DNA of 64,000 nt, taken from NCBI GenBank assembly GCA_021234155.1, contig JAJEKV010000525.1:94940-158939 (forward strand). The letters run 5' to 3'. The translations under genes and the position numbers were made by a program. Positions 1,019 to 26,338 of the stretch are shown piece by piece. The DNA comes from Isoetes taiwanensis (lineage: Eukaryota; Streptophyta; Lycopodiopsida; Isoetales; Isoetaceae). A model generated the notes under the pieces. The model saw only the letters and a program-made list of their open reading frames with translations. It ran no database searches and had not been told where the DNA came from. Numbering within the stretch: position 1 is the first letter of the stretch; each line of letters opens with the position of its first letter.

Positions 1019-1042
1019 GGGTAAAAGAAAGCTAGGGTGTCT
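1019..1042 (+). repeat. Left terminal inverted repeat of the 18.4-kb element
   Basis: 24 bp, GGGTAAAAG...GGTGTCT, an exact reverse complement of 19408-19431. The flanking bases outside the two copies differ apart from the TTTC duplication, as expected for element ends. Confidence 0.8.
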
Positions 1043-1060
1043 TACATTTGGCCAAATGTA
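1043..1060. repeat. 18-bp perfect palindrome just inside the left TIR
   Basis: TACATTTGG followed at once by CCAAATGTA. The right end has a counterpart in the same position relative to the TIR (19371-19399), so the palindrome probably belongs to the terminal structure. Confidence 0.75.
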
Positions 1061-1414
1061 GAGTAAGAGATGTATCACATTTCAAATACATAACCGTTTT
1101 TTCAGTATGTATATAATAGCTATATTATGGAATCTTTTTTTTCGGAACTACTTGCCACGTCAATTAAAACGCAATCATGAAGCGATTTCAATTCCGCACG
1201 CTCTAACCACTCCAAGAAGCTTTGAGCGTTAGGAGAATTTCCCACTTTACGGCTAAAACTTCGCCAAACTCGGGATTTCCCTCCTTCTTGCGGGAATTCC
1301 TCCGGCTAACCCTAAACCACGCAAGAACCATGATGAACAATGAAGGAAGCGAAATGGTGCAAGAAGATTGCAATATCGTAAAGGACAAATTTATATATGA
1401 ATGCGGGTCCAAAT
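1061..1414. other. Subterminal segment; possible first exon of the transposase gene
   Basis: No clear gene. A short plus-strand frame from about 1330 (MMNNEGSEMVQEDC...) precedes the T/G-rich array and could be a 5' exon of the gene continuing at 12118, but no splice junction can be shown. GCCACGTCA at about 1153 is echoed on the opposite strand near the right end (about 19298). Confidence 0.3.
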
Positions 1415-2210
1415 GTTGTTTTTTTATACATGTAGTTGTTTTTTGTTAAAAGTCTACATGTAGTTTTTTGTTAACGTAGAGTTTTGTCAAAATTATCTAC
1501 ATCGTAGGAATTACACGATGTCTACATGTTGTTTTTTAGAAGTAGATGTGGTTTTCGAGTGTTGCTTTTTCTAAAATAGACATGTGGTTTTTAATAAAAC
1601 CTAAAAGGTCCACATGTAGTTTTTAACTATTGTTTTGTATGAAAAAAAACACTAAAAAACTACGTATAGAATTTTGTCCGATTTTGCTAGAAACTACACG
1701 TAGTTTCTTTGTTTTTTCTTTTAACTATGTTGTTTCTAAATGTTGTTTTCTTAAAAAGGTGATATGTGTTTTTTAGGAAGAATGTGGTTTTTGTAAACTC
1801 GTTGTTTCTAATTGTTGTTTTCTTAATAAAATTATATGTGTTTTTTAAGAAGAATGTGGTTTTTTTTAACTCTGTTGTTTCTAAGTGTTGTTTTCTTAAC
1901 AAAATGACGGGTGCTTTTTAAAAAAAAATGTGGTTTTTTTTTTTAACTATGTTGTTTCTAAGTGTTGTTTTCTTAGGAAAATGATATGTGATTTTTAAAA
2001 AATAACTGTTGTTTTCAAGTATTCTTTTTCTCGTAAAGAAGAATTTTGATATATAGGTTTATATAAAATCAACATGTGGTTGTATAAAATAAGCAAGTGT
2101 GGTTTGAATTGAAAAATATGCAAAGTGTTATTTTTGTTTGTTTTTCTAAAACAAAGACGTGGTTTTGAATTGAAGATCTAGAAACCATTGGAAAATATAT
2201 ACCTTTATTT
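1415..2210 (+). repeat. T/G-rich degenerate tandem array
   Basis: About 800 bp of diverged units built on TGTTGTTTCTAAGTGTTGTT, ATGTGGTTTTT and CTACATGTAGTTTTT. Its complement-like counterpart is the A/C-rich array at 9820-11110. Short frames here are by-products of the repeat. Confidence 0.8.
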
Positions 2211-4335
2211 TTCAAGATTGCAGTTACAATTCACAATCAGAACAAAGATATTTTCAAAGAAAACTTGCTTGTCGCCATTAACTGCGGAAACAAATTTAGA
2301 AATACAATCATTCTAAAACAAGATTTAAACATCTTCATGCATAGAGCCATAGGTAGAGCCACCATAGGTGTTTTGCGGCGTGCCAGAGTACAAGATTTGG
2401 CAAAGCAAAACTTGCCCACATATCACCATAACCCTCTCAAGGCGCTTCTCGCCTTGTAAGGCAAAAAATTGCCATATTCTTGAAGAAGGCAAGCAAAGAA
2501 AACGTTGAACGTAAAATGCCTGCTATATCAAGATGGGGAATAACATCAAGCCCCCGCTTAATCAACAAATCTATTGTCCGGCTGCTTTTGTCACTGTGAA
2601 GACATGATTTCATTCCTATTGTAGAGTTGAAAAATAATCGAGATGGCTCGTGGAAAGCCGAAAGCAGACAACATACAAGTTAATAGAAGCTTTGCGTAAA
2701 CCCTTAAATCTCCTCTTCTCAAGATAAGAAAGATCGGGACCTATCTTAGAAAGAAAAAAATAGGTAGAACATAATTAGTAATCGCTATCCATGCCCACGA
2801 TTGAAGAAAGGGCGTGAGCTCTGACTTGAAGTGGTAAAGCCTATATTTCGAGGTCGATGCCTCTCGTGGCCTCCTAAGTGATCACAACCCCGCAAATCAC
2901 CCACCACTTAATTCGCTTTGAAACAGCCTTTTAAGAAAAAAAAAGGGTTTGGAAGATGACCTCCTACCTTCATACATGTCGATTGGTAGCCATTTTTCCC
3001 GAGAACGAAACCTTCTTCCCCTGTTTTAAAATAGATTCTGAAGACAGGTTCCTAAGACGTAAACCTTCTTCCTGTTCCTAAGCCAAATTTAAAAAGCTTC
3101 TAGTGGGGTAGAAACAATAGCCGCAGAGATGGTTAACTAGAGGCAAAAGAAAATTCCCACAACCGTGATGAATTGTTACCGTAATCCTTTGTAGGTCGTG
3201 GGTCCTTAGAATTCGCTGCCATGGGCGGAATGAAGTCGTATGAGTGTTGCAAATGTAAGCTAGAAGCCGGAACAGCTTCGACATTTTTCAAGGCCATGCA
3301 TCAGGCCGCTTAAGAGATCACGCCCTGGCTAAGGAGGGCGCAGTTTATTGCCACCGAAAACTCGTTAATGTATTGTGCCATCGCTGGCCGGGCCGATGCC
3401 GCCATGAAGATAGATCGTAACCAATGGTCGCATAGATGGCGCACAGAGATGGAGTGGAGCAACAGAGAAGGAGGCGAAGAAAGATGGAGGCCACAGAGAT
3501 GGCTTGAATTTTGGCGGCAAGCCGAAGGCAACAAAAGAAGAAAAGGGATGCACGAATTAGGGTTAAAAACGAGATTTGCAAGCGGTGGATAAACGGCCAA
3601 TCAAATTTCTCTTCTTGGATCGATGACCTGGATTATGTGTGAACCGTCCATACTTTGAAAAGTTTCCCGCCATTGATTGTTCCTTTTCATCGCTGGCATA
3701 TTTAATCTGGTGTTACCTATGGAAGCCCCGCAGGCATATCTAATCTGGACATAGATAGGCCCTTGCTTTGCAAATATTCAGTTTGGATGGGTGTTGTGTT
3801 TTTATACTTTCAGGATTTTCTATTCGATAGGGTTGTATTATTAAGTTCCTCACTCATTAGATCATTGGTCTACTCAAGATCATTATCGCCCAAGAAATTG
3901 ATTGTGGTCGCACATTTTTTTCGACCGACTCCCTTATTGGTTTGCATTGTGACCATCAGGAAGGACATCGGGTATGAAACATACTGGATTCTAGAGAGGC
4001 TCTAAAGAGAACGTTGTGAGGGACACTTGGTTGGTATCGAACATACCCTCCAAAAGAGTACCATGTGCTCTACAATATAATAACATCTAGTGAGAAATAT
4101 ACCCAGTTCTAGAGAGGAGGACCAATGTTTGAATCTAGACTTCGGGAACGACCTCAAGCAACTGTTTCAATATTGTACATTTCATAAGCATTAGAATCTG
4201 ATGGCTATGAACATTCCAACTCAATAATCCAACATATGAAAAATCTGATGGAGCACTCACGATAAATGCATGGATTAACCGCCAGGCAACAAACAATTTC
4301 ACTACATTATTCCTTGCCCCATGCATTGTTAATGT
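2211..4335. other. No recognisable gene
   Basis: Non-repetitive AT-rich DNA with somewhat higher GC around 3300-3600. Short open frames occur on both strands at 3310-3600 but overlap one another and resemble nothing I know. Probably old element sequence. Confidence 0.5.
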
Positions 4336-4780
4336 ACTTTATTTTCCCTCTTGTTTCTTGAGAAGCATCGAAGTTCTACCCATAACATAGTTACAATTTA
4401 AAAAAATGGAATGGTCCAGACTAAGTGGCATGTTTAAGCCTATGTGGCATGTCTGAACCATGTGTTTCAGCCTATGTGGCATGTTACAACCTATATCGCT
4501 AGGAAACATATTGTTAAGAAACATGTTGTAGAAATAGTTGTGACGTAATAGTTTCACGCTAATGTGTAAGATAGGGATGGAGGTCTAAAATCATTTGCTA
4601 CATAGAGCAATTTGGCAATCGATAGCTCACCACCGAGGTTCATCTCGCACGGATCGGGCATGTATCCACCCATCAATTCAAACCTACAAATCTTGGCAGA
4701 TTAACAAATACCATACCCAATTCCGAATCTCTCTACAATGCGATCGTTGCAAGAATGGGAGGCGCTTGCGAATGCGTTAG
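4336..4780. repeat. Decayed patch of the GGCATGTT minisatellite, then unassigned DNA
   Basis: Between about 4420 and 4500, TGGCATGTTTAAGCCTATG, GTGGCATGTCTGAACC and GTGGCATGTTACAACC are diverged monomers of the array at 9005-9735. The remainder holds nothing I recognise. Confidence 0.6.
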
Positions 4781-4789
4781 TCATATAAT

Positions 4790-5330
4790 GTGGTGTGCCA
4801 CATCTTTCAAAGAAATGCCATGTCATTATAGTGAATATGCTTCTTCTAAGAAGTTGCACTAGGCAAATTCTTCATTTTTCTATCCCTTCATCTTTTGCCA
4901 TGTCATCACTCATATGCTCATGCCATGTCATCACCCATATTTGCTGTAAAAGTCACATGTTCAAAAGAAAGGAAGTTTGGTTTCTCTTTATTATAACACC
5001 TCATCATTTCAATCACCTTGTTTGCCACTATAACCTACTTATCTTTTAATCCCCTTTTTTTTTAATTGGCCTAGTCATTTCCTATTTAAAATGCATTGTC
5101 TAAGCAAATTTTGCATTTTTCCACCACTCTCATCTTTGACAAATTTCACCATAGTTGTCATATACTCATGCCATGTCATCTCCCATAGTTTTGGCAAATA
5201 AAGAAGTTTTCTTGCTCTTTTGATGCCACCTCATTATTTCTAGGGCCATATCATTGCCATATTACCTTATGCGCCACTATCCTACTCATGCATTGCCACT
5301 CGCCTAATAAAGCGTGATTTCAACCACAAC
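4790..5330 (+). repeat. CATGCCATGTCATC repeat family, copy 1
   Basis: Contains ATGCTTCTTCTAAGAAGTTGCA, GGCAAATTCTTCATTTTTC and several CTCATGCCATGTCATCACCC motifs. The same order recurs inverted at 5820-6110 and directly at 8040-8460, so this is a dispersed repeat, possibly arms of a foldback-like element of about 1.3 kb (4790-6110). Confidence 0.65.
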
Positions 5331-5819
5331 CCAGAAACTTAAGGCAAACTTGAAACTATGCTCAAGTTGGAGTTAGAGCCTTCAGATCACTTTTGTCGAT
5401 CAACTGCAGACGAGAAAAGATTGATAGAATAACTCAAAAAGCTCAAAAGTTCATGTGTTCATACCTTTCCCATTTCCATAAAATGGTACCAGTACTCAAA
5501 TCGAGATGGCAGAGTGGTGCCTAAGCCAACCTATACTAGATAAAGACGAGTGGCAAACATGCCTTATACTAGACAAAGGCGCATGCATGAAAATCAAGCA
5601 TGGTAAACGTAAATATGGAAAAAAAAAAACCCCTTTTCTTTAAGTAAGAGGAAGTAGGAACCAAATTGCATACCTTATATTTAGTCAAACGCCTTGTAAC
5701 TTCTCATGTTTCTAAATATTGCACCGATTTGTTATGCCATGTACCTGTGGTGCTCCATATTCTAGATTGCCCGTGAGGGGGGTATTTGGCAAAATTGAGG
5801 TGCACTATTTCACTTATAC
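5331..5819. other. No recognisable gene
   Basis: Interior between the two inverted CATGCCATGTCATC-type arms. Contains an A-tract near 5620. No coding frame of note. Confidence 0.5.
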
Positions 5820-6110
5820 AATCGTGGCTTCAACATGATTCAATGCGTGTGACATGTGTGCAAAGTGGGGGTCATCCATTGCAAGGTGGAAAAAAATGGT
5901 GAGGTGGCCAAGATGAGCAATGAGGTGGAAAAAATGAGTTATGATGTGGCAAAATATGGATGGATGGAAGAATGAAGAATTTGCCTAGCCTATTTTGCAA
6001 TTTTTTAGAAGAAGCATATTTTACCATGATGACATGGTATTTTTTAGATGATGTGCCATTTCACGTGATGATTAAGCATTTTAGGCACTTTTGGTAGAAA
6101 ATGACTAGAC
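5820..6110 (-). repeat. CATGCCATGTCATC repeat family, inverted copy 2
   Basis: Read on the minus strand it gives ATGCTTCTTCTAAAAAATTG, GGCAAATTCTTCATTCTTCC and GCCACATCATAACTC in the order seen at 4790-5330. The two form imperfect inverted arms. Confidence 0.65.
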
Positions 6111-8035
6111 CATTCTAGACCAGGAGGTGCTTAAAGTAGAGATGCCAATGAATCAGATTGTCGTGAAACTTGGTCCCATATGGGGTAATATCAATACTCA
6201 ATATTGTGGAACATTCAATTTGTCGCTCCGAGTATTCAAGTGTGATTTTTTTTTTTTTTTTTTTTTTTTTGAAGATAAAGAGGTGCCATTTTTATTTTTG
6301 AAAATAAAAAGGATATACATTAGTTCTGGATGAGGGACTACTACTGTGTTCACACCTTCTTCGCCTCCCAACGCATAATGCTTATTCAGATTCCTAAGAG
6401 TCATATAGAAAGAAGTAGTACAAAGAAAGCTAGGACAAGGAGTGGTAAAAGATAAACAACGATTTTGGCTGAGGAATTGTGTTTGTGCAGTAGCGGTGCT
6501 CGAGAAAGGACAGCTTCTCTCCTACCATAGCAGCCCTAACCCTAACCACGCTTCCCAAGAAGCAAAGATCTAGGAGGTCGCCTTTGTGACAGCAAGAATT
6601 TATCAATCTAAGAAAAGTTTAATATCTAGTCAAGGTCCCAAGTGCAAAGGACCTAAACTCGACCTCCAAAACATAAACCCTTCAATAACCTACCAAAGAT
6701 ACATGGTTTATGTTGATTGTTTTTGCAAATCAAGGCAATCTAAAAAATACTTCTTGTAATCCAAATTCCGCTTTGACCAGCTTTTCCCATATCACAACTC
6801 CTTTTGGCACACCTCGTTTTGGAATTTCTCAAAACTTCATTGGCAACTCAAAATCCTCATTTCTGATCACGCTTGCGCTTGACTTTCATTGACCTTTTGA
6901 CCCGACTTTGAACTCGAATATCCCATGATCCGAGATCCAAGTCAATAATTCCAACTCACAAACGTAATGTGGACAAATTCATACATTTGCCCTCTACAAT
7001 TCACGCTTACCCTCTATTCGTTGTCGAATGCATTTTGTTTTCATTCTTTCACGTGCTTGGGAGCGGCCGGAAGTCCGCATTTGCCATTAACATGGTTAAG
7101 TGATTGATGAGTATTTAATGTACATGTTATTTAAGATTATTTGTTACCTGTGATAAAACCGTTTGTGCACCTTCTAGGGTATACATGATTTGCTATTGTT
7201 GCAGATTCTATTCGAATGATCATCGAATGATGATCATTGATATAATTTTAAGAGGTCTTTTTTAGAATTATATTCAGAGTTTAACTAGATAGAAACCCAA
7301 GAACTGGCAAACAGCCTAAACTCCAAAGAAATACACACGCCGCTACAATTAGTGTAATGACATCCCCAAATCAAAAACACAACAAAAAAACTTCTCATGT
7401 ACAACATAAAAGATAACTTCTACCATTAACTAGAAGACAAAAAAAGCAACGGACGCAATGTGAAACACAAACTAAAGCTCGATGCCTTATGATGTCTATT
7501 TAAAAGAACATTGTCCACATTTGACCATAGCTCCCTCCCTCCCTCCCTCCCTCCCTCCCATCCCATCGCTCCCTCCCTCTCAAATGGCAAATTATTAGAT
7601 TGCATTGGTTTAATGTTTAAGGTTGATTACCCTAGATTCCATGTAGTCTATTATATCTACCCATTCTATCCAACACTATGTTACTACCCATTCCATGTGC
7701 ATATGGCTAATGCAATGCATCCGGGCAATACCTACGTAACATCTACAAATACATCTACATTTATAGCTTATTATTCTGTCTACAAAATCCATCACTTCTA
7801 CTCATTCTAAACGCCCACAGCCTAATGCCCCAAGATCGTCGGGCACACATTTCTAGTTCTTCTATAAATCATTTGGCGATCATAAGCTACTTATAGGATT
7901 AGCATGTTTTTAGAAGCTCAAAGGGCAAAAGATGATTATCTTACCTCAATGAGTATCAATATCAATATTGTTATAGTATTTGGCACATCACATATTGACA
8001 CCTCAATTTGGCCTATTCAGTCTGCCATACCAAAT
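6111..8035. other. No recognisable gene; poly-T tract and CCCT microsatellite
   Basis: A run of about 25 T lies at 6246-6270 and a short CCCTAACCCTAACC motif near 6535, too short to be telomeric. A CCCT microsatellite lies at about 7532-7577. No convincing coding frame. Confidence 0.6.
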
Positions 8036-8460
8036 GTGTTAGTCATAATGCGACTTATGGAAATATGCTTCCAAAAGTTGCAAATTGGCTAGACAAAGTT
8101 TGAATTTTTCTATTCCTTCATGTTTTGCCACGCCATCATTATATTTGCCACCTCACATGCTCATGCCATGTCATCACCAATATTTTTTGCAAATAGTCAC
8201 CTTTTCATAAAGGAACTTTTTATAAAGGAAGAAGTTTGGTTTCTTTTTCTTATGATACCTCATCATTTTCCAGGCCACGCCACCTTGCTTGCACCGATTT
8301 GCCACACCATCAAAGAAATGGGCCATGTCACCATGGAGAAATATGCTTTTATAAAAGGTTGCAAAATTGTTCACTTAAATTCTCCACTTTTCCAACCCCT
8401 CATGTTTTTCCACCTCACCACTCATGCCATGTCATCTCCCATATTTTTGCAAATTGAGTT
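8036..8460 (+). repeat. CATGCCATGTCATC repeat family, copies 3 and 4 in tandem
   Basis: Two successive degenerate copies, beginning near 8040 (ATATGCTTCCAAAAGTTGC) and near 8290 (AAGAAATGGGCCATGTCACC). Both share with 4790-5330 the order ATGCTT..., TTTTTC..., CTCATGCCATGTCATC. Confidence 0.65.
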
Positions 8461-9004
8461 TGGATCTATCCTCCTCCCGATGTGGCAATTAGAGGCGCAG
8501 AGCCGCTTTTGCAAGAGAGCAAGATATTATTTTTGATCATTCTCGTTGTTATGACTCGATGATATTAGTTTAGAGACGGCACTGTTAACCATAAAACGAA
8601 TGATGGTATCAACCTTCCAAAGCAAAACCCTACAAGAACCTAGTAACTCATAGGGTTTACATTTCTGAGGTTGAGACGGGTCGCTTGCATGGATAACTTG
8701 ATGCACCATCTCTAGACATGCATGTAGAGACATGACCACCTAAAAATGGAGTTTCACCACCGCCATCCCTAATTGTCCCAAACATGATTGCTACCGCAAA
8801 AACCGCTATTGAATTCTAAATCACGATCGGGAAGAGAATAAATCCAAAATCAATTTTGTTAGTTGCCCCTCTTTGCTCCACATTACCAATTGCAACTCCC
8901 CGCCCAAATCCCTGGCTCAAGTGATGAAAACTCAAGTTTCAAAACGTAAAACCCCTTCAAGAACCTAGTAACTCACTGTGGTTTACATTTCGTGAGTCTA
9001 TATC
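8455..9004. repeat. Satellite-related fragment and a short direct duplication
   Basis: 8455-8530 (GAGTTTGGATC... TTTTGCAAGAGAGCAAGA) matches the end of the 1.11-kb tandem unit at 51681-54897. AAGAACCTAGTAACTCA is followed by GGTTTACATTT at about 8635 and again at about 8963, a local direct duplication. No gene. Confidence 0.6.
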
Positions 9005-9735
9005 CTAGCTCAAGGTGGCATGTTTGAGCCACCTTGGCATGTTGGAGCCCACGTCAAGATGTATGAGCCACCTTGGCATGTTGGAGCCTATGTGGCATGT
9101 TGAGCTCATGCTGCCTAGGCGGCATGCTTTGAGCCACCTTGGCGTGTTGGAGCCCAGGTGGCACGCTGGAGCCCACATGGCATGTTTGAGCCACCTTGGC
9201 ATGTTGGAGCCTAGATGGCATGTTTGAGGCATGTTGGCATGTTGGAGCCCACGGGCATGTTTGAGCCACCTTGGCATGTTTGAGCCTAGGTGTTATGTTG
9301 GAGCCCACGACATATTTGAGCCACCTTGGCATGTTGGAGCCTAGGTGGCATGTTGGAGCTGTGGAATTTTCGAGCCACCTTGGCATGTTTGAGTCTAGGT
9401 GACATGTTGGAGCCTAGGTGGCATGTTTGAGCCACCTTGGCATGTTCTAGCCTAGGTGGCATGTTGGAGCCCATATGGCATGTTTGAGCCACCTTGGCAT
9501 GTTGGATCCTAGGTGGCATGTTGGAGCCTAGATGGCATGTTTGTGGCACGCTGGCATGTTGGAGCCTAGGTGGCATGTTGGAGCCCATAGGTGGCATGTA
9601 GGAGCCTCGCGTGGCATGTTTGGGCCATCTTGGTATGTTTGACCCTGTGTGGCATGCTTGAGCCACCTTGGCATGTTGGAGGCCATGTGGCATGTTGGAG
9701 CCCGCTGTGGCATGCTTGAGCCACCTTTGATCTAA
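9005..9735 (+). repeat. 19-bp minisatellite, about 37 monomers
   Basis: Monomers of the form GGCATGTTGGAGCCTAGGT and GGCATGTTTGAGCCACCTT alternate, giving a higher-order period near 38 bp. Long frames that read MPRWLKHA or GSNMPRWLKHA are translations of the repeat. Confidence 0.9.
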
Positions 9736-9819
9736 CCGCTGAAGGTATTTTTCACTTAATGTAAAACAATACGATACATTTCCAAATTTGAGCACACAAA
9801 CAATATTCCGTGGTGGTGG

Positions 9820-11110
9820 TTTTGCTTAAGAAATAGCCTCAAAAACACCTCAAAAAAACTATACTTCCTTAAGAAATAGCTATGTAAAAACTACACCTTG
9901 TTATAAACCACACCACTTCGTAAAACCACACTTTTTAGAAAAAAAAGCCACTTAAAAAACTACACCTACTTAAAAACCACACCTAAAAAAACCATACTTA
10001 CTTTAAAAAAAAGCTACTTAAAAACTACACCTAGTTATATAAACCACACCTAAAAAAATCATACTTCCTTAAAAATAGCTTCTTAAAAACTACACCACTT
10101 CAGAAAATCGGCCACTTAAAAACTACACCCGCTTTTATAAACCACACTTCAAAAAACCATACTTATTTAAAAAACAGCCATTTAAAAACTACACCCACTT
10201 ATAAACCACACCTCAAAAAACAACATCTCAATTAAAAAATCACACACCTTCGTAAAACCATACTTCCTTAAAAAACAACCACTTAAAAACTACACGCCAC
10301 TATAAACCACACTTCTAAAAAATTATACTTCCATATAAAACAACTACTTAAAACTACACCTAGTTATATAAACAAATTATTTGAGCTACTTTGGCATGGT
10401 CAAGCCTCAAAACCATACTTCCTTTAAAAAAAAAAGCTACTTAGAAACTACCCCTAGTTATAAATCACACCTCAAAAACCAAACTTCCTTAATAAATAGC
10501 TACTTAAAAACTACACCTAGTTATAAACCACACCACTTCAGAAAACCACACTTCTTAAAAAAACAACCACTTAAAAACTACATCTAAACTTCAGAAAACC
10601 ATACTTCATTAAAAAAAAAAACCCACTTAAAAAACTACACCCACTTATAAACCACACTTTTAAAACCATACTTTTTAAAAAAAACAGCTATTTAAAAACT
10701 ACACTTGCTTATAAACCACACCTCAAAAACAACACCTCGATTAAAAAAAAATCACACCACTCGTAAAACTATACTTCCTTAAAAAATAACAACTTTAAAA
10801 CTACACCTCCTTATAAACCACACCTCAAGAAACTACACTTCCATAAAAAACAACTACTTAAAAACTACACCTAGTTATAAACAACACCTCAAAAAACAAC
10901 GCCTTCTTAAAAACAACACCCTTTAAAAAAAAAACAACACTTCCTTTAAAAAACCACACCTTAAAAAAAGACCACATCTTCAAAAAAAAAAAAAAACTAT
11001 AGCTCCTTAAAAAACTACACCGCTTCTTAATAAACCACACCTCCACATAACCACATGTAGATTTTTTGAACAACGACATGTGGTCTTTTTTAACCGTTGT
11101 TTTAAGTGTG
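9820..11110 (+). repeat. A/C-rich degenerate tandem array
   Basis: About 1.3 kb of units such as ACTTAAAAACTACACC, TAGTTATAAACCACACC and AAACCATACTTCCTTAAA. It reads as the complementary strand of the T/G-rich array at 1415-2210, and near 11050 it shares the ACATGTAG/CATGTGGT words with it. Confidence 0.85.
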
Positions 11111-12117
11111 GTCCTGCACTGGGGTGGTTGTGATAGCAATGATAAATTAGCGCCTAAGCATTCCTTTATCAATGATTGTTGGTGAGAATGGAAAACTCAG
11201 CAAAAAGGAGTAGCCTCCGCATTCTTCAAGTGCAAGCAAGAAACCTCACAAAAGCCGCAATTAGAAGAAAGCGGATGTCATTATCGTGCTAATATGTGGG
11301 CAATCGGCAGAAGGCAACCTGTGGCGCAGACATGCTTCCGGAATCAACCAAACAGCTTGGTAAATGAGTTTTGTTAACCCACACAAAACTTCTCCAAAGT
11401 ACGTGGATGTCAGAAGAAAAGGACACTTCCAATCCAGCTTTTGGACATGCCCTGTGTCAGTTTTAAGTCTTTTAATCCTCTTTTTGCAAGCTTGATAGAA
11501 GCTAGCTTCAGGCATCCCCGATAAGTTTAGTAATCCTATTTGCATTCCATGCAAGGGACGATATGATATACATTGAAGTACATCCAACTACAAAGAATTT
11601 ATTTTTACACTTGAGGTACCGAATGAGCTATGTTTAACAAAGAAAAGTACTTGGATGTACTTCCACTTACATCCAATGTGGCATAAGGCGTAAAATGTGT
11701 TGAAAGTCGCCGCGGTGATTATAGTCTTGATTTTTGTAGTTCCCAAGTACATTATAGTACATTTTAAGCTTTCCGATCTCAAGATAGTTTTGAAAGATAG
11801 GGTGATATATAAAAGTATTTAAATGTACTTCCTTCCATAAGAAAAGTATGAAATACATACATCCAGAATACAGATGACACTGTCTGCGGACGGGGTTACA
11901 TATTGAGTTTTTATGTACATCCGAACTCTTTGAGTACATTATTTATACATTTATACATATCATTTACATGGTATGTACTATGTTGTGGTATAGTAGTTGA
12001 ATGTATATCAAATCATGATTCAAGTGCCATAGAACTAATGCAATGTCCGCAACATCTTTGAATTCGTAAGTAGTTCTAATTTATATCTTACTTATACATG
12101 CCGCTTTTTTCTTTTGC
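11111..12117. other. No recognisable gene; cluster of ATGTACAT motifs
   Basis: A 108-codon minus-strand frame at 11261-11587 has no recognisable domain. From about 11580 to 12010 the DNA is rich in GTACAT, ATGTACTT and TGTACATC words. A similar cluster lies at 17440-17720, near the accessory gene of the same element. Confidence 0.5.
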
Positions 12118-13960
12118 AGAGTGAATTGTATGAGATGTTCAAAGATGAACATCCCGAAGTGAAGATTAGCATCGAAAGTTCGAGCCGCTTAAGCCCACGC
12201 GGTGTGAGAAGGTTGAAAGAGAGGAACACATGCCGCAAGCAAGGAAGCATGAACAAGCTGATCTATACGTAAAAGCTTTTAGCGCCCGAGGAGCAAATTT
12301 CATGCCAATTGTACATGTTCTTGTGGTGTTTGTGCAGCAGATGAGAACAATGGCGCCCCGCCAAGCTCCTTCTAAAACATTTTCAAAATGTTGGTGCTAT
12401 GTGGAGAGCTACGGCCCGTGACAAGGAAGGCTTAAGAGTGGCATAGTTTGGATCTGCGGTCAAGGGAGAGTGCCGAATCGCGGGCAATCAAAATATTCAA
12501 ATCTGCCCTAAGGAAAAAGAGTCGCAGAATGAGAACATTGAATGGCAAGTTTACAAGCACGCGGAACGAACCTTCCAAAGTCGGGCACTTCAAGGAGGTT
12601 GAAGCTTGTTATCGAAAGCGGACTCCGTGTACATTGCTTGACAAGATGTTTCAAAGACCTTACAAAGTTCACTATTCACAACTTTTCAAAGCAAGTTGGC
12701 AGAGCAAACAACGTGAAATCAAAGGCAAAAATTGAGGGATGATTCTATTTTGTCAAGAATGGACTTTGTAGAGAACTACACTTTGCACCATTCGTGGAGG
12801 TTCAAACCGAAAGCATTGGAACAATGACCGATAACTATTCTCGTGCATATAACCATGATGAAAGTCAATGGCGAGCTGAAAAAAACTGTTCATTTGTATG
12901 TTTCCGATGTTATGAAGCATGATGCTTTCTTTGTTCAAAGGCTGCACTCAAGAAGCACCATATTTGGATGATGCAAAAGGTTTTGGCCACATCAAATACC
13001 ATGTCATGTGATCCGATGGGTGTGCTGCTCCGGCTTTAAGTGTTCTCGAGCCTTTATTTGAATGTGGCCCAATATTATAACAGTATAAAATTAGGATGCA
13101 AGTGGAATTATTTTGGCTCGTGCCATGGAAAAGGAGAACATGATGGGCAGTGTTTTGGAGAAAAGGGTTCCCAGCGACGAGCAAAGGAAAGAGAATGGTG
13201 TTCCGATTTTGGGTGCCAACTCGCTTTGCACTTTGTCGAGACAAAAGAAGTGCAAAATGGACAGAGTCATATGGGAGGTGATGGCGTAAGACATTAACAG
13301 GGACCCTCGCTCGATTGTGAGACATTGCCCGGTACTCTAGCTATACATTGTGTGTTCGCTATTAATCCAAATTTGACCCAACACTTGTCATGTATAGATC
13401 CCCGCCATGTTTTTGCAATGGTTGCTTGAATTTCAGATGGGGAGAATGTGAGAATCTCGAGCATTGTGGTGCGTGGAAGCCGCGACAACCGGAGCCTAGT
13501 TCGCCCGTGTCGCATCTAACAAGAAGAGCTAGTTGGTTTTATGCAGGTGATGAGCAAGAACTATCCGATGTACTCCAAATTGGAGACATATTTGCATCTT
13601 TTGCTGCCTCCGTGGAATCATGAAAATGTTCCATACTTCGCCCCTCCTATGAAGGAGATGCATATTCTTCAGAAGATGTGATTGACCCACTATGGAAATA
13701 GAATGCTTGCTGGTGAGGGTGGTTATAGCTGGTCATTACTATCAACTCGCTACAAGGCACAAAGCACAAGTACAAGTTGTTGGATGACAAAATAGTATTG
13801 GTACCAAACCGAATCAGAATTGGAGCAAAGTTCACGATGCAAAGCAGGTCAAGCATAAGTTGAAGGGGCACGCATAAACATATATGATGATCACGAGAGG
13901 TGCATGACATGCTTATATCAAGCCTACCTGAGATTGTTGAGTGCACATGACTAAGTTCTA
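12118..13960 (+). pseudogene. Decayed transposase-like gene (SDGCAA...HGKGEHDG type)
   Basis: Adding frameshifts, the plus strand reads ELYEMFKDEHPEVKISIE, then a Cys-rich block (about 12225-12350, with paired TC and C-x-C type cysteines). After a decayed stretch come HDAFFVQRL, GFGHIKYHVMWSDGCAA (about 12978-13031) and KLGCKWNYFGSCHGKGEHDG (about 13093-13152). Later pieces read YPMYSKLETYLHLLLPPWN (about 13565-13625). From memory, a family of transposon-type proteins in plants and animals has a Cys-rich N-terminal half and an SDG...Q(Y/F)K...HGKG..DG core; I cannot name its superfamily. At least ten stops or frameshifts are evident. It converges on the minus-strand gene of the element. Confidence 0.55.
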
Positions 13961-13995
13961 TACAAATGAACTTTCATATTTGCCATCATCTTCTG

Positions 13996-14361
13996 TTATG
14001 TTGAGAAAACTAGTCGATTGCTGTAAGTTTTTTTGTTATTTACTTATTTTTAATCGGGGTGCATTTTGATACTTCAATTTTCAAGATCACGTATATCTTC
14101 TCGTGATCAAGCAAAATGTATATCGAAAAGTACAAAATGTTTATCAATTGTTGCATGAAGAAGTTAAACTAGTCTGTGTTATGTTGAGAAAACTAGTCGA
14201 TTGCTGCAAGTTTTTTCTTATTTACTTATTTTTTAATCTGAAGTGCATTTTGATACTTAAATTTCAGTATCACACAATATCTTCTGTTTCCAAGCACAAT
14301 GTATATCAGAAAGTACAAAATGTTCATCAATTGTTGCATGAAGAAGTTAAACTAGTCTGTG
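13996..14361 (+). repeat. 183-bp tandem duplication between the convergent genes
   Basis: TTATGTTGAGAAAACTAGTCG begins at 13996 and again at 14179, and the following sequence (TATATC..AAAGTACAAAATGTT.ATCAATTGTTGCATGAAGAAG) is repeated with few changes. It lies in the intergenic 3' region of both genes. Confidence 0.85.
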
Positions 14362-14639
14362 AACTTGTTCTGTTATAATGGATATCAATAGCTTTTCTTT
14401 TGATTCATGAAACAAAGCAGAAAGTGGAACATGTATGGAGACAAAACTTTGTATTACATATCACAAGATATACAACCGGTCATATCGATATGATGCCAAT
14501 ATATACAAGTCTGTTGTTCATATTTTATATTAACATTAATTTACATTCAAAATCTGGTCACAGCCGATGTGAAGCCAGTACATACTATTCTGCTGTTTCA
14601 ATATATTACTTTCTTGCAGCTTGCCAATAGCCCTGACAT

Positions 14640-15290
14640 GCCATCTCTCGGCCCTTGTAGCCCCTCGAAAGCATTTGCCTCCAAACAATTGTGGTTAGTA
14701 CATCGGTTGGATTGCGTGAAAGGATTTCGGCTTCACATATTTGCTGTGTCCGGTGCTATCAACAAACCCTCTAGCCATGGTTTCGAAGTGTCAAGAGACC
14801 GTGTCTTCAACATCACTTTCCCTCGCCATGAAGGTGGGCATATGCAATTTTCGTTGGGATTGAAGAGCATCTTGTACTCGAGTCGCCTACTATTAGTGTG
14901 TTGCTGTCATTCCTGTCTGGATACTTCTCATATATGAACTCAATTGGCTTCAGATACAAAGGTTTATCTTCACATGGTGCAATCCGGAAAGGCAGCTCCA
15001 AACAGTGGCTTCCATCAAAGGTGAACCTTAAGTCCCTTATATCAAGGCCATTGTGAAGATTTTATCCACTACTCTTGATAGGTTCCATGGAGCTATTGAT
15101 GACCATATTCCTACTTCAAAGTGTTCAAATACAAATTCCGTGAATTCGCCTAGGTGGGGCCTTAAAAACAACACTTTCTTGCCTATTATGTCATAATTTC
15201 CAACTAGTCGATCATCCGATACCAAAGTCCTATGTATTTGTTTTGCCAAAACATTATTGATATCAAACACTATCAACCTTTTCGGTACAC
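14640..15290 (-). pseudogene. FCP1/NIF-like phosphatase domain of the element's accessory gene
   Basis: From 15276 down the minus strand encodes MIVFDINNVLAKQ (nucleophile block, DINN), VLFLRPHLGEFTEFVFEHF, then VGIWSSIAPWN and RVVDKIF. After a break it continues at 15001-14815 with KPLYLKPIEFIYEKYPDR and NDSNTLIVGDSSTRCSSIP, the late HAD block. Beyond a stop near 14790, ARGFVDSTGHSKYVKPKSF fits the C-terminal end of the plant family. The order matches plant FCP1-like proteins with a DLNG block. Several stops and frameshifts interrupt it. It is a diverged paralogue of the domain at 1-570. Confidence 0.7.
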
Positions 15291-15899
15291 CTGATATGAA
15301 AGAACATGCAATTTATCAATAAAGTATGGTGGAGTTAAATAAAAAGAGATTTTATTCATTAAAATTCAATGAAAAAATGTGTATTTTATAATCAAATAGT
15401 GTTCAGCATTGACAATAGGGATAGGTTGTTTCTCAGCCACATTTATTAGTACCAGGTGGTCTAATAGTTTCGGGTGCGATGTGAATGTGGTCTAACTCCT
15501 GAAGTAGTGCTCGGGTGAGAACATCACGACGATCCTCCGCATACTTTGGCAAGAACCAGCTTCGGGTAATCTGCAAATGTGACAACAATACTTACATAAT
15601 AAGTATTAAAAACCATTTGTTTGCAAGACAAAAGAAGTGAGACACTCACATTGGTAGTTTTACCACACATAACCATTGTGTCTACAAACTGTGATATAAG
15701 CCGCAACATAGAGGCCACATGAATCCCCATCTTTTCGGCTGTGGACACTTATGAATCTTCACAACCGGTGAAGGATTTTGTCCATGCTTCAAAAAGTGGG
15801 GCACTCGACACAACAACCGCGTGCCATAGTGAGGATGTGGAGCCGCAAAAGACCGCGGATCTATTTTGTAGCAAATGAATGAAAAAAGCTGCTAACATG
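15291..15899. other. Linker between protease-like and phosphatase-like segments; no clear domain
   Basis: Minus-strand frames here (for example 15524-15748) are short and unrecognised. The position suggests decayed coding sequence or introns of the accessory gene. Confidence 0.35.
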
Positions 15900-16560
15900 G
15901 TATCCAATCTACTCAATATTAATAAAAGGAGATGTGAAATACAAAATACCTCTTAAGTGCAAGCATGTCAACGCCAATGTCCCGGCAGAATTGAAGATCC
16001 GAATGTTGATGGTGTTCTTACTCTTAGTAAGTGCCATGTTGAAGATGGCCAAAGTGTGATGTTCAGTAACTCTACATAGCATTGGAATCATGATCCATCT
16101 GCACTTCAGCCAATTTATCCCTGTAAGAGCTACCTTTACAATATCTCTTCCACGCTCGGAGGCTGCCATAGATTTATCTTTTTTCGCTTGCCTTGGCCCA
16201 TGCCGCAAATTCCATGAAGTCCGTCGGTGGGAAGAACCAGACGTCGGCCTTCTTATCATCTGGAACACAGAGCTGCAGGTACCTATAACAAGTTGAAAAG
16301 GATAAAATTACTAACTTGACTTACACATACAAATGAACAAGTTCAAAGTCCAGTACCTTGCATACATATCCACATGCGGTTGGAAAATTTTCCCACATCC
16401 ATGTCCAAAGACATCTTGTTCAAATAAATAACACTCCATTTCGTGCAAAGATCACGGGAAAATCCTTGCCTTCTTGAGCTTCATCATTCGGTTCAGCAAG
16501 GCATCGTATGGCTGATTGAATCGCAGCCCCGGGTTCAATGACCAGTACATTTACACAAAT
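15900..16560 (-). pseudogene. Ulp1/C48-like cysteine protease segment of the accessory gene
   Basis: Minus-strand frames give PGLRFNQPYDALLNRMMKL (about 16545-16490), ADVWFFPTDFMEFAAWA (about 16240) and, after a frame change, NWLKCRWIMIPMLCRVTEHH directly followed by TLAIFNMALTKSK and INIRIFNSAG. The W-x-x-I/P ... HH-T-L-A-I-F-N-M ... I-F-N-S pattern resembles the core of Ulp1-type deSUMOylating proteases (W.fiPin...HW.l.vi....i.v.DS), which other plant DNA transposons are known to carry. The catalytic His fits the HH pair and the Asp position reads Asn. The Cys region was not identified. Inactive, with stops and frameshifts. Confidence 0.45.
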
Positions 16561-17440
16561 CATCTACATTCGCCTACTACTATCCATATTATTTTACGTT
16601 TTTAACTTGGATACTAGATGTAAAAAAAAAAAAAATGTAAGATATGTAGATCAAGTTACCCTCAGAGATCATTCTTACGCTTCTCACGACATCGTTTTCT
16701 GAGTCAAGATCCATTTCCTTCCCTTCTTTTTGGTTTCCTCACTCAGATTCTTATTAGGTCGAGAATCCTCGTCTTCAACCTCTCCCCGATTTCTCATTGT
16801 GATGAAATTCGGCCCTTTGCTATGTCAAGCAATATTTGACACAAACTTAAAAGTATCCCCGCTCTACATGTTGATGCTCGGAAGATTCCTTTTCATTAGG
16901 ACTGTAAACATAGGATGTCATGGATTTCAGCTGCCGTATTAATCGAAATAAAATGCTTTCTTACCGCTTTCTACTTGCTTTAATTGTCTTCTTTCGTGGG
17001 CTTTTTAGGCGTGGACTTCTTCTTTGGAGTCGGTTTAGGCTGCTTTGCCTTTACTTTTTTTGAAGATGTGGCCTTAGCCTCGCTCCCTCAATCTCTCGAA
17101 GTTCCTCGCCATAACTGGAATGTCACCATGCGGCACTGGTGCCGACCTCCTCAACTCAGACACCGCTAGAATAGTGATTTTGCTTTTTCCTTCAATCACT
17201 GCTTTCTTTCCCTCGGCTACATCTTGCACCTCAATTTTCTTTGGAACCTCCAAAACTGTGAAAACCGAACCAAGAATAAGAAATTGCTTCCTCTGACACA
17301 ATGCAAATTGAATTTGAAAACAAGCGCACCTGATCTGTGGTGTAATTTCTGCTCAGTAGTTTTTTTGGCACTTTGAAGCTCTGAAAATAAATCACATAAC
17401 AGTCAGATATCAGTCTCAAACTAATCAGTCTCTAACTGTT
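16561..17440 (-). pseudogene. Basic linker of the accessory gene
   Basis: Minus-strand pieces are Lys/Arg rich with repeated KVPKK and RRSPRLKSPRKK words, like the KSPRLNK start of the same gene at about 19080. Probably nuclear-localising or DNA-binding linker sequence. No fold is recognisable and stops are frequent. Confidence 0.4.
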
Positions 17441-17868
17441 CTGTACATATCAATAGCTGTACATATTACTAGAACTGATCTACATTGAAGTACTTTGAGT
17501 ACATACACATGTAAACAGCTATTTATCTAGATGGAATGTACATGTAATGTACATGAATGTGCTCCAATGTATGCACATGTACACATCAGACATTACATAA
17601 AATACCTCTAAATGTTCTGCCACAAAACTCAGTACACAACTCCTAATTTTATGTATTTAAGTTCTACATTTAGGACCCTACACTGTGAATGTACAACATG
17701 TATGTAAGAAACACATATATGTATGACATGCAAGCCAAGGAACTATAAGTATAAAATAACCAGTACACTCCTACATGCTGTAGCAAAACCTTAAGTGCAA
17801 AGAATCTACATGTAAATGGATTCTACATTAAATGGATTCTACCGGTGCAAAGACAAATTGAACATAAA
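17441..17868. other. ATGTACAT-rich intergenic or intronic segment
   Basis: Dense in TGTACAT, ATGTACATG and ACATGTA words. No coding frame of note. Confidence 0.6.
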
Positions 17869-18425
17869 TCATGAAATATCGCTTACCTCAAGTGTACACA
17901 CCCAAGATCTTTGAAATGTTTTCATCCCATTTGCATGCTCTTTAAGGTGATAGTCCAACAGTAAATAGAATATGAGAAAATGTAAGATATGAAATGAATG
18001 CTCGCATGGAGCAACTAGGATAGGTTCATTATTAGCAAAGCCATTACTACAAAACACACATCCATGCACGATATGAATTTTTCTTCAGCCGGAGAGATCA
18101 CTAAGCTTGTTTTGGGCTGAAGGAGAATCATTGCGAGAATGCATCATGTACTTATGCATATCATCAAGCCGTCCAAAGATTCAAACCGAACTTTGTGAGC
18201 CTCCTCAAGTCTCCGCAATCCTCTTTTCACATAACTCCTTCTCCCGAATGGCTTTCTCCAATGGCTCCTCGAATTCTCTTCAAACATTTCTTCCTTCCCT
18301 GGTTCTATCCCTCATCAAAAGGTCAACCTCCGCCGCGACAGTCTTGATGTCTCTCTTATTCTCATGAAGCGTCGCCGAGAACACTATTGATGTCTTCTTG
18401 TATGCGTGCTAGGTCCTCTTCATGT
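17869..18425 (-). pseudogene. Coiled coil plus RING-type half-finger of the accessory gene
   Basis: From 18425 down: EDLARIQEDINSVLGDAS, ENKRDIKTVAAEVDLLMRD and REFEEPLEKAIREKELCEKR, charged and heptad-like. Then comes CVFCSNGFANN followed by PCEHSFH, that is C-x2-C-x14-C-x-H-x2-H. This matches the first five ligands of the RING-H2 finger in the interrupted gene at 19985-20105; the last three ligands are lost. The order (N-domain, coiled coil, RING) is the same in both genes. Stops and frameshifts are present. Confidence 0.6.
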
Positions 18426-19100
18426 GCATCCTTTCTTCCCGAAATCTTATTTATATTGTCGTAATGCACATGCCTCGCTGAATTTTTCGGTTCTTCAACC
18501 TTATGTGCCGCTAATTAACTCTCCATGACACCGCCGCAATGAGTTTCGCAAATTCAAGCTCTTCCTTAGGGTAAAATCCTTGCTGAAATTTAGGAACCTT
18601 GGATGTGGATTTAGAGGTCCCAATTTCTTCTTCGTAATAGCAGATTCTTTTGCTCCTCCCTTTGCCAAATCTTTGGCCAAAACTTTAAAAGTATCCCAAT
18701 CTACTTTTACCTGTCACAATTGAAGGGCAAATGCACGAGCAAAGTACTCGTGTACATGGCGATTTGTGACCTCCCGCTTACCAAAAACAATTTCATAATG
18801 TTTGTAGAAGTTCTCGCCCACTCGGCTTCACGCTAGATTCTTTGAACCCCCGTGATGTCTTTGGGCCCCACCGCTTTCGTCCATTATCTGTTGTAAATCT
18901 GGAAAAATTTCATCTGCATTGACACATCTTACATGCTTTGCTTCCACAACAGTGGGTTCTTCACAAATAAGCCTTCTTTTTGGCCCTGGTTCCTCAGAAG
19001 TTTGAACCTTCCTCTTGTTCTTTTCGGCTTTCTTGCTAGAATCGGCTATTTTCAAAATTTTGTTTAATCTGGGTGACTTCCGGGAGGCAAAGGCGTCCAT
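18426..19100 (-). pseudogene. N-terminal part of the accessory gene
   Basis: An open frame starts at 19100 (MDAFASRKSPRLNKILKIAD), basic with KNKRK and PKRR words suggesting nuclear localisation. After frameshifts near 18840 it continues GENFYKHYEIVFGKREVTNR, HVHEYFARAFALQL, VKVDWDTFKVLAKDLAKGG. This aligns with the interrupted gene: VFYPDGVSN, NEVRKQLVLAFAWENCPEG, INWASYGAQVMMYKKC. The shared domain has no name I know. The start lies 330 bp inside the right TIR. Confidence 0.6.
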
Positions 19101-19370
19101 TGCTTGGATTTGGGCAAGGATTTCGAGGAAGAAGAATAGTTACAGTCGAATTACTTTGTTGATCACTCACAAACACAAAAAATTGGAACGGCGGCAAATT
19201 TTTTTTGGCAACAGGAAACACTTCGCAATCTCCCTCCGAAAAATTGCAATGAAGGTCCGTTCTGGTTGCCACTGCCACTCATAATTTTGAATTGCTGACG
19301 TGGCTACTCCTAATCATTACATATCCCAACTAACTAAAATTCAAAAAAATAACAAAAATGGGTGCCTACA

Positions 19371-19399
19371 TGCCCTACATTATACATAATGTAAGGGCA
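19371..19399. repeat. Palindrome just inside the right TIR
   Basis: TGCCCTACATTAT, a 2-base spacer, then ATAATGTAAGGGCA: a stem of 13 pairs with one bulge. Counterpart of the palindrome at 1043-1060. Confidence 0.75.
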
Positions 19400-19407
19400 T
19401 TTTTTTT

Positions 19408-19431
19408 AGACACCCTAGCTTTCTTTTACCC
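19408..19431 (-). repeat. Right terminal inverted repeat of the 18.4-kb element
   Basis: Exact reverse complement of 1019-1042. It is read through by the interrupted gene, adding VKES and a stop after the native codons. Confidence 0.8.
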
Positions 19432-20814
19432 TTTCCTCCCCTTCTTCATTCAAATCAATGTGCATTATTTTTCTCAGTGGATACTTTCTAGCCTCCACAA
19501 CTTTTTTCTTGTTAGTTCTCTCAACCCCTTTCTTCTTGCTGGTCCCAACTTCAGTGACCTTCTTGCTACTTGAGTTCCCTTTCTTTTTGCTAATTAACTC
19601 ATCCTTCTTTGGCATATCCTGTTTTTGTTTTCTCTTGGCTGGAGTGTCTAATATTTGACACTCAACTTCACTAGTGTTTAGACCTGCCTCTGAATCCTCT
19701 CCAATTTTACCATTGCTTCTCAAGTGTCTTGGGCTTACCATCTTAGATTGATCCTGGACAATTTCTGGCTCGTCCCTTGCATATCTCAACCTTCTCTTTG
19801 TGCTAAAGAAGGGGACTTCAACTGCTCAGGCAAAACATCTTCAACATCAAGCCGAGTATTTGATCCCAAATCTGGCCGAGCTTTCTGAGTTACTTTAGGA
19901 TCAAAAGAAGCAACCTGCTCAATTCCTGTTGGAGTACTCGTACCAAGTTCAATATAAAGGTCTTCAGGAATGTTACATTCACATTTCAAACATCTGCCCT
20001 CTTTGAACAATGAAGCACACATTACATGATATTCATGTTCACATTCAAGAACTACAGACATCTTGTAGTTATTATGAAAACTTAAACCACAAGCACTACA
20101 ATAACTTTGCAAAAAACCTGGAAGCCTTCTTTTGATGGTGTTGATGCAGAAAGGAGAGCTGGTGATTTGCCTCAGAATTTGAAGGTTACTTGCATGTTTT
20201 CCTGCATTTATCTCAACATCCAATTGAATTAATTCAGCTTCCAATGCCTCCTTCTTCACAAGAAGATCGGGATCTCCAGGTTTGCAAACAGACTCCAAGG
20301 ACTCACATGCATATTCTTCAAACATTAATTTCTTTTCTAAATCTGTGATTTCTAACTCCACTTCCTTTGTAATAACCACAGCTCTCTTCTCGGCAATAGT
20401 GGACTTTAGCTTTTCCATACTGCTTCTTTTTTCAGACAAGGTTTTAAATATTTTATCATTGGATTTCTCATCAGCAGCCAGACTAACAACAATATCTTAC
20501 ATTTCCTTTCCCATCTCTGCCTTTTTATTCTCAAGCTTCCCTAAGTTTTCTGTCACTAACTGCAGGTTATGCTTCAAATTAGTCTGATCAAGAGTAGGCT
20601 TAGGAATACCTTTTGCAGAAATAGCAGGCTTTGAATCAATTTCAGCTTTTGCTTTTTGAACATTTTTTTTCGGCCTGCATTTCTTGTACATCATAACCTG
20701 TGCCCCATATGAAGCCCAATTTATCTGATGACCTTCAGGATCAAGCAGTCCTTCAGGGCAATTTTCCCATGCAAAGGCAAGAACCAATTGTTTTCTTACT
20801 TCATTATTAGAAAC
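19432..20814 (-). pseudogene. Middle part of the interrupted gene: N-domain, coiled coil, RING-H2, basic region
   Basis: From 20814 down: VSNNEVRKQLVLAFAWENC and a GHQINWASYGAQVMMYKK block, then KKNVQKAKAE. A TAA interrupts the frame at 20497-20499, but the same frame continues DIVVSLAADEKSNDKIF. A charged, coiled-coil-like stretch follows (about 20460-20190). The RING-H2 finger at about 20105-19985 has all eight ligands, C-x2-C-x15-C-x-H-x2-H-x2-C-x8-C-x2-C. After a one-base slip near 19810 comes FFSTKRRLRYARDEPE and a Lys-rich tail (KKKGNSSSKK). It ends at the 18.4-kb insertion; the frame resumes at 1014. RING-H2 proteins usually act as ubiquitin or SUMO ligases. Expected nuclear from its basic tracts. 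Either a host gene or the accessory gene of a second, outer element. Confidence 0.75.
20807..20814. repeat. Left target-site duplication of the hAT element (TTAGAAAC)
   Basis: Exactly repeated at 26130-26137. Eight bases is the standard hAT duplication length. Confidence 0.95.
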
Positions 20815-21594
20815 CAGGGTGTTTTTTAGTGGCCCCGGCGGGCCAGTTGGCCACACATTCACATTTTTCAAAAAATAGTCGGCCACACCTGAGTAGGATG
20901 CATTCTCGCCATGAGCAAAGGGTGGTGGCCAGTTCACAACACCAAATTATTAAATTCATTTCATAAGTGGCCAATTTATCATTTGCCCCATCTTCATAAC
21001 CATAGGGCGTGGCCATTTCAAAATATATCCGCACTAAAAAACCTGCTGGGGTGGCCATTTAAACCATGGAATAATTGTAAATTTCTAGGATTGTGGCCAG
21101 GCCCTACATTGGCCAATTGTAGAGTCACAATTTCGCCACTTGTAGGGGCTAAATCTTGTTTGAGTTTTTAGACTTAAATTCCCAAAGTATTTTTTAATAA
21201 TATATTATTTTTTCAAATTTTGTGGATTCGAATTTGCAATTGCCCTATTCTGCTCCAGTCCCGCTCGAATCCTCTCTTCGTTGTCTCGGCTCAAATCAAA
21301 GGTTAGTTTTCATTCTCCAAGTATCTGCAATAAGTGTTTTTGTTAGATTCATGCTATCGAATGAATCCAGTTGTGCTTATGTCTACAATCAATTAATCTC
21401 TTAGTAATCCTAGTTAAAGAATGAAGCACGAATTTGTTTTTTACAATTGCATCAAGATCATACAAACTAAAGGCCTACTCTGCCCAGCAAAGAAACGGAT
21501 GTTAGATTGTATTGTTCTGATATTGTTATGTTTTTGCTTCCTTAATTTGTAGAGAAATTCTTGTAACTAATTTTTATATGTTGATACAGCTATA

Positions 21595-24257: not shown

Positions 24258-25085
24258 AAAAGGTACTTTTCTGATTTCTGTTTTTGCATTTACTAAATAA
24301 TGCATTCTTCAATATTTATAATTATATTGTACTGCACAGAAAAGCTTGTAACAGGTTTTTGTATTGTCACGCTACATGGCAAAAGCATATCAGCATGTAT
24401 CTCTGATCTATTCTCTGTTATTTTCCAGATATGCAGATAATGCGCATTCTTACTGGACATGATATGGTTGAAGAGAGCTGCCAAACAATCATAAAGTAAG
24501 CAGTTTAACATGTATATTTCAACGAGCTTTTAGTATTACATATCGAATCTTGCCATATGATTGTCAAAATTTCTTGTAATGCTAGCATCTAGTAGTATGA
24601 GATAATGTGAATCTTGCTTCTGATGTTTCTGATATCAGATATTTCTGAGTATTTCTGAGTATTTATGATTTTTGTTTTCTGGCATGCACTGCAGGACACA
24701 TGATATTTGCATTTCTGCCATGCAGGAAACATTCAAGTTTTGAAAACAAGAACAAAACCAAAATCCACATTTTTGTTGGAACCTGTTTGTTTTTTTGTTG
24801 GAACATTTTTGTTGGAACCTGTTTGTTGGAACATGTTTCTTTTTGTGGTTCATAAATGGTCGAACCTGTTTTTTAATGTATTTAAAGCACAGATATATTT
24901 CTTTAGAAACTCAGAATGGGCCAGGTGTGATTTACATTTTTATCTTTGGATTTCTGATCAGCACTGAAATGGGAACTGGAAGGCTCTGTGAAATGCTTGA
25001 AGCCTGTGCTTTTCTGTGATCCAATCTACAGCTACAGCCGATGCTACTGATCTTCTAATGATCGAATCAAAGAGCCTTGTTTTAC
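24258..25085. other. hAT 3' region, no further gene
   Basis: AT-rich. Short direct repeats occur at 24770-24840 (TTGTTGGAACCTGTTTG copies) and 24637-24665. No coding frame of note. Confidence 0.6.
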
Positions 25086-26129: not shown

Positions 26130-26338
26130 TTAGAAACACCATCTGGGTAAAACACATTCAATAAGCTTTCCAATTTTCTCCTCAAATGTGGTTGAACAAA
26201 GGCAACCTTGATTGCAGACTTCGACTTTGAATTAAAACTTTCCTGCCAAACGGATTCCCATTGTTCGTTTGTGATTTGGGTTGCTAGCCAATTGAATTTC
26301 ATATGGGGCTGCAGACCCTCATTTGGCAAGCCGTGCAT
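26130..26338 (-). pseudogene. 5' part of the interrupted RING/NIF gene
   Basis: Reads MHGLPNEGLQPHMKFNWL, then ITNEQWESVWQESF, RRKLESLLNVFYPDG and VSN at the hAT junction. With one copy of the duplication removed it continues in frame at 20814. In-frame codons (KSITSEDFVE) precede the Met at 26338, up to a stop near 26385, so the true start may lie upstream or in another exon. The VFYPDGVSN part aligns with IVFGKREVTN in the element's accessory gene. Read through the insertion, the frame runs on into hAT sequence. Confidence 0.65.

Follow-up and report, generated by a model that had tools for sequence, protein, structure and literature searches.

Ulp1 domains have been described in MULE and CACTA elements (excerpts of PMC2528002) and in Ginger1 elements (excerpts of PMC2836005). 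In KI-MULE, the Ulp1-like domain lies opposite to the transposase (PMC2528002, in part). Ginger1, which makes 4-bp target-site duplications (TSDs), carries its Ulp1, OTU or PHD domains on the transposase itself and has TG..CA-type ends and CCGG/CCGT targets (PMC2836005, in part). A further group, Sola, combines a DDD transposase with a 4-bp TSD, terminal inverted repeats (TIRs) of 11–1124 bp and a size of 2–9 kb and more, and is known in a moss; the accessible part of that source describes no gene with RING or NIF domains (PMC10741241). Here, we analysed a stretch of 64,000 nucleotides from the lycopod Isoetes taiwanensis, called the window below (contig JAJEKV010000525.1, i.e., C248:94940-158939 in the 1.66-Gb assembly), in which an element at 1019–19431 had been proposed, from its letters alone, as a transposon with a RING, Ulp1-like (C48) and NIF-phosphatase accessory gene. 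We conclude, with a probability of about 0.75, that the locus holds, one nested in the other, two diverged families that represent a single kind of cut-and-paste DNA transposon of ~8–9 kb, each with convergent transposase and RING-NIF accessory genes. The element first noticed is the inner one, and it has inserted into a member of the second, outer family.

Results

Ends and copies of the inner element

The inner element is bounded by TIRs of 24 bp (1019–1042, plus strand, and 19408–19431, minus strand) that agree at 24/24 inverted positions, and each adjoins a copy of TTTC (1015–1018 and 19432–19435), just as the original prediction stated. When up to 3 mismatches were allowed, the TIR motif matched twice in the window, at the two ends themselves, and never in 100 shuffles. 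The terminal palindromes that had also been predicted are both present, and stability clearly above that of shuffled sequence was found for the right one only. The left palindrome (TACATTTGGCCAAATGTA, 1043–1060) is perfect over 18 bp, with an unremarkable folding energy (z −1.3 and −0.7), and the right hairpin (19370–19400) reaches z −4.4, with 0/200 shuffles as stable, and z −2.8 over a longer stretch. A TIR-like site (18/24) lies at 44552.

These ends are dispersed in the genome, where the 182-bp left end was found at no fewer than 40 places with at least 98% identity (best 40 of 297 candidates). At seven places 20 kb were fetched, which together with the copies at ~60–69 kb of C248 and on C1019 makes nine further loci; the right end of the element played no part in choosing them. 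Both TIRs are mismatch-free in 8 of these nine, 6.6–9.4 kb apart, and an exact 4-bp duplication (TTAA, ATAT, ATGA, TTCC, AGGT or TTGG) flanks six of the eight two-ended copies. The ends read GGG..CCC and the targets vary across copies. Inverted ends, exact duplications at the window copy and at 6/8 others, and dispersed copies are what a TIR DNA transposon should show. The search for other copies with the same ends, suggested as a check in the original prediction, was thus successful, and the fetched copies carry RING and NIF parts.

The same copies revise the size of the element. The window copy does measure 18,413 bp, the 18.4 kb first given, but 1390–11132 is missing from the other fetched copies, which consist of 1019–1389, ~0.2 kb of other sequence and then 11133–19431. 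Because they join these two parts almost directly, the 9.7 kb at 1390–11132, which contain tandem arrays and smaller inverted repeats, are foreign, a later insertion or replacement, and the natural inner element is ~9 kb long with a core of 8.7 kb. Inside the foreign part, a tandem array of 19/38/57-bp units occupies 9013–9727, and two degenerate arrays near its edges (1411–2160 and 9845–11078) are related and in opposite orientation; they may be subterminal repeats belonging to a nested element.

Genes of the inner family

The transposase gene of the window copy (12120–13506, plus strand) is broken. Its three Asp motifs (DFAENY, WSDG and HGKGEHDG) were read in open frames of other copies, namely L019, L027 and L015, as VMDFAENY or VMDFAKNY, MWSDGCAAQFK and HGKGEHDG. 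The gene matches no Pfam or NCBIfam family. It converges on the minus-strand accessory gene, in the orientation originally described, and, as shown below, a homologous gene is present in the second element.

The accessory gene starts at an ATG at 19100 with an N region and part of a coiled coil (18088–19100); this stretch is broken here, and its open frames extend further in L013 and L027. Next, at 17968–18060, comes the first half of a RING (zf-RING_11, E 1.9e-4 raw and 6.6e-6 stitched, both below cut-off). This half, GCVFC.NGFANNEPILVAPCEHSFH, recurs in other inner copies, and the second half was not established in the inner family. A basic linker lies at 16983–17087. The C48 (Ulp1-like) region at 15472–16563 is broken (E 0.049 and 0.0059 stitched). 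Its best match, in an open frame of L025, has an E value of 4.2e-4 and scores 20.6 bits (cut-off 20.7), and of the catalytic site His-Asp-Gln-Cys the H, an N replacing D, the Q and the C are readable in inner copies. The NIF domain (14704–15291), with FDINN at motif I, just exceeds the PF03031 cut-off of 21.8 bits in the window (21.9 bits) and is clear in an open frame of L013 (65.8 bits, E 4.6e-18); FDINN was seen in 7 of the nine fetched loci, i.e., wherever motif I was found. In the six raw frames of the window element, Pfam gave NIF and RING at E ≤ 0.1 and no third family. Profile searches bear out the predicted RING, C48 and NIF domains in part: NIF passes its cut-off, RING and C48 stay below theirs, and the RING is represented by its first half. 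The genes of the window copy are heavily broken.

An outer element with the same gene plan

The inner element interrupts a minus-strand gene, and joining its flanks at one TTTC opens a frame of 161 aa. Taken alone this frame is weak evidence, as it extends 30 codons past the junction and deleting 1 or 7 bases works too. The interrupted gene is the accessory gene of the outer element. From its start it comprises part of an N region beyond a hAT element (26138–26390, approximate limits); the rest of the N region, a coiled coil and a complete RING-H2 at 19981–20100 (together 19789–20814, one in-frame stop); a lysine-rich linker split by the inner element (19436–19823); a continuation of the gene to the left of that element (926–1018); and a NIF exon with LDLNG at motif I (118–540). 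The last matches PF03031 with E 1.6e-13 and 51.1 bits (cut-off 21.8), and its acceptor, AG/GTGTAC, lies at 540. The hAT element interrupts the N region, and with it removed the frame runs for 188 aa. The RING-H2 pattern with its eight Cys/His ligands occurs once among window open frames of at least 40 residues, in this gene. It is also present in 2/3 further outer copies. In the outer copy L041, a 606-aa open frame covers N region, coiled coil, complete RING-H2 and basic linker, with the NIF exon next. The outer gene has no C48 between linker and NIF: the junction and the NIF exon are only ~480 bp apart, which leaves no room for a C48 stretch as long as the inner one (1.1 kb).

The right TIR of the outer element (26555–26578, minus strand) consists of the 24 bases GTGTAAATATGGTAATGCTACCCA, whose inverted match at 23/24 positions, the left TIR, lies outside the window at C248:89478; the best match in 20 simple shuffles of the same 40 kb was 17/24. 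The boundary is common to 3/3 fetched copies, whose homology with the window ends at 26578. So delimited, the outer element spans 32,040 bp, or 8,300 bp minus the inner element and the hAT. Its transposase gene (C248:91194-92653, plus strand), located to the left of the NIF exon, has the motifs VIDFAENY, FWSDGCSSQFK and SSHGKGEHDGAGA. The outer gene is a dispersed repeat, present at a minimum of 40 places with 82–100% identity (best 40 of 237 candidates).

Two earlier candidates for the outer ends were rejected. A GTGGCCA array phased at 42 bp, with a hairpin (20925–21150), belongs to the hAT, as an alignment of hAT loci showed, and the left end guessed from that array was not found in 40 kb; the true TIRs were located elsewhere. 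Other mobile sequence accompanies the outer copies. Just upstream of the copy in L041, an Ulp1-like stretch was noticed by eye on the reverse strand (388–783, HHILVPILENDHFVLAVF..ILNPLTG) and probably comes from another mobile element; LINE-like endonuclease and reverse transcriptase pieces, also noted by eye, lie beside or inside outer copies (upstream parts of L040 and L042; L043 2301–4600).

Probable common descent of the two families

At the DNA level, a comparison of the inner element with its flanks gave no match at 1e-5. The transposases and the NIF domains are related. Inner transposase open frames align with C248:91194-92653 at E 3.3e-40 and 34% identity, and with an outer copy on C930 at E 2.2e-23, and the three Asp motifs are common to both families. 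The NIF domains of the window pair align at E 1e-12 (30% identity) and those of natural copies at 8.3e-14 (33%). Both NIF exons start with AG/GTGTAC, a word that occurs 3 times in 64 kb. The gene order is also the same, N region, coiled coil, RING, basic linker and NIF, with C48 before NIF in the inner family only. The ends, the 4-bp duplications of the inner family, this gene order and the homology of both genes across families are direct observations. Because a diverged second transposon has the same transposase and RING-NIF plan, the combination of RING and NIF appears to be inherited cargo, not a chance composite. A possible NIF-like remnant at 61320–61900 (minus strand, E 0.94) had no Pfam match and was dropped.

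Decayed genes between conserved ends

All fetched copies of the inner family are gene-dead. The longest frame among nine inner elements has 375 aa and is partly foreign sequence, and compared with the column majority the copies carry 79–159 indels whose length is not a multiple of three (inner 8 kb, counting introns). Aligning the copies did not yield the undamaged consensus that had been hoped for, as the column majority is not open either (longest frame, 239 aa). The minimal open tiles of the inner window copy numbered 8 in 1140 bp, 2 in 370, 6 in 901, 4 in 592 and 10 in 1391, against shuffle means of 11.6, 3.3, 8.8, 7.1 and 13.5, respectively; for the outer gene they were 3 in 1511 bp against a shuffle mean of 18.6. 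The ends tell a different story, since pairwise identity among 8 sequences reaches 0.993 over the 100 bp at the left end and 0.995 over the 100 bp at the right end, compared with 0.90–0.95 in the interior. Given that the genes are dead while the ends stay near-identical, the inner copies probably owed their movement to proteins supplied in trans by another copy or family. The copies yielded no autonomous source.

Other features of the window

The hAT element (20815–26129) has ends CAGGG..CCCTG and an 8-bp TSD (TTAGAAAC, 8/8), and next to a hairpin it carries five GTGGCCA sites spaced exactly 42 bp apart. Its end is found at 40 or more places (best 40 of 278 candidates). No Pfam family matches its transposase, which has relatives that are named as hAT proteins; 18 relatives were found, among them 6 from Ceratopteris richardii and 1 each from Adiantum, a moss and Chlamydomonas. 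Elsewhere, the window contains a decayed CACTA transposase (Transposase_21, 56000–60000, minus strand), three copies of a ~1.1-kb direct repeat, ~84% alike (51681–54876), and two likely host genes, one with an ACT-like domain below cut-off (32244–32855, plus strand) and one with a B-box zinc finger above cut-off (38574–39026, minus strand).

Discussion

Several observations weigh against the interpretation of the locus as two families of one transposon kind. No target duplication could be made out for the outer element (..TTTGG on the left, CTAATT.. on the right), its TIR sequence is unlike the inner TIR, and its RING scores below every Pfam RING cut-off. For the inner family, the duplication is imperfect in 2/8 copies (3/4 and 2/4), no right TIR was found within 20 kb at the ninth locus, C974, and the best C48 score misses its cut-off by 0.1 bit. 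Between the families, the N region and coiled coil gave no significant alignment (best E 0.66), and an intact transposase was seen in neither.

How the two families relate to described superfamilies is a separate matter. MULEs have a MULE transposase and a TSD of 9–11 bp; here the TSD is 4 bp and Pfam gave no MULE transposase match. The inner family resembles the KI-MULE/CACTA-ULP elements as a DNA transposon with an Ulp1-like domain, encoded opposite to the transposase as in KI-MULE (PMC2528002, available part). It differs from them in its 4-bp TSD, in the lack of a mudrA or Transposase_21 match in the element, and in having RING and NIF in the same gene; its GGG..CCC ends likewise do not fit CACTA. 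The 4-bp TSD and an Ulp1-like domain are shared with Ginger1 (PMC2836005, available part), whereas the GGG..CCC ends, the varied targets, the location of the domains off the transposase and the absence of a Gypsy-like integrase match set the inner family apart. Sola fits best, with its DDD transposase, 4-bp TSD, TIR and size range and occurrence in a moss (PMC10741241, available part), and both families here have three Asp motifs. It is nearly an even prospect that both belong to this or another known superfamily and that the cargo alone is unusual. The motifs may resemble those of Sola transposases, and a RING/NIF gene is present here.

The second gene could instead be a host gene that plays no part in transposition and was captured separately by each family (transduplication). 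Capture of gene fragments, including ULP domains, is described for plant transposons (PMC2528002, in the part available), and the two accessory genes are very different from each other. We nevertheless consider separate capture unlikely, because the gene is placed and oriented alike in both families relative to a homologous transposase and uses one and the same NIF splice acceptor, which common inheritance explains more simply. That unrelated debris points the same way by chance is very improbable, for although the window-copy pieces are broken and 9.7 kb are foreign, the same order recurs in the fetched inner copies and in the second family, which refutes a chance composite for RING and NIF.

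Homologs outside the genome offered little guidance. Searches with stitched queries returned nothing at E 1e-3 (1603 candidates; 7996 scored) from a collection that includes ferns, a result not counted as absence as the queries were broken and length-limited and the second contained many lysine words. Viral contigs yielded no relative of the outer NIF or of the stitched transposase, and no TIR. Searches of an open-licence library brought up no paper on a transposon combining RING and NIF. Searching PDB sequences gave nothing useful for C48, UBLCP1 at E 0.076 for the stitched inner NIF, and FCP1 at E 0.48, ranked below unrelated matches, for the outer NIF. Structures modelled from single sequences were of low quality (pLDDT 41 and 40).

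The domains of the two proteins suggest possible roles. The transposase would make cuts at the TIRs that are staggered by 4 bp. The accessory protein may dimerise via its coiled coil and bind nucleic acid via its basic linker, and its RING, together with C48 in the inner family, may target ubiquitin or SUMO marks, either at the element or on host proteins that serve silencing or repair. An E3 role is plausible for the outer protein because the outer gene has a complete RING. Active FCP/SCP enzymes have D-x-D at motif I. The NIF domains match PF03031 clearly in both families and differ from FCP1/SCP phosphatases in being fused to a RING and a basic linker and in having D-x-N at motif I (FDINN inner, LDLNG outer). 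Lacking the second catalytic Asp, they would serve as a phospho-protein binding module more than as a phosphatase. Because motif I is D-x-N in both, dephosphorylation of RNA polymerase II, the role first suggested for this domain, is doubtful.

The two transposases differ at roughly two thirds of their residues, and both families have still kept the same second gene, which points to a retained role. Tentatively, a convergent three-Asp transposase and a RING-NIF gene, with an optional SUMO-type protease, may define a plant transposon group, perhaps a superfamily of its own, in which the pair was kept over deep divergence because transposition, or evasion of host silencing, depends on the accessory protein, via ubiquitin/SUMO marks and phospho-protein binding. 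As this protein is open over most of its length in a natural copy, its effects on ubiquitin/SUMO marks, silencing and transposition are testable, and the answer would bear on the frequent presence of modifier proteases in plant transposons.

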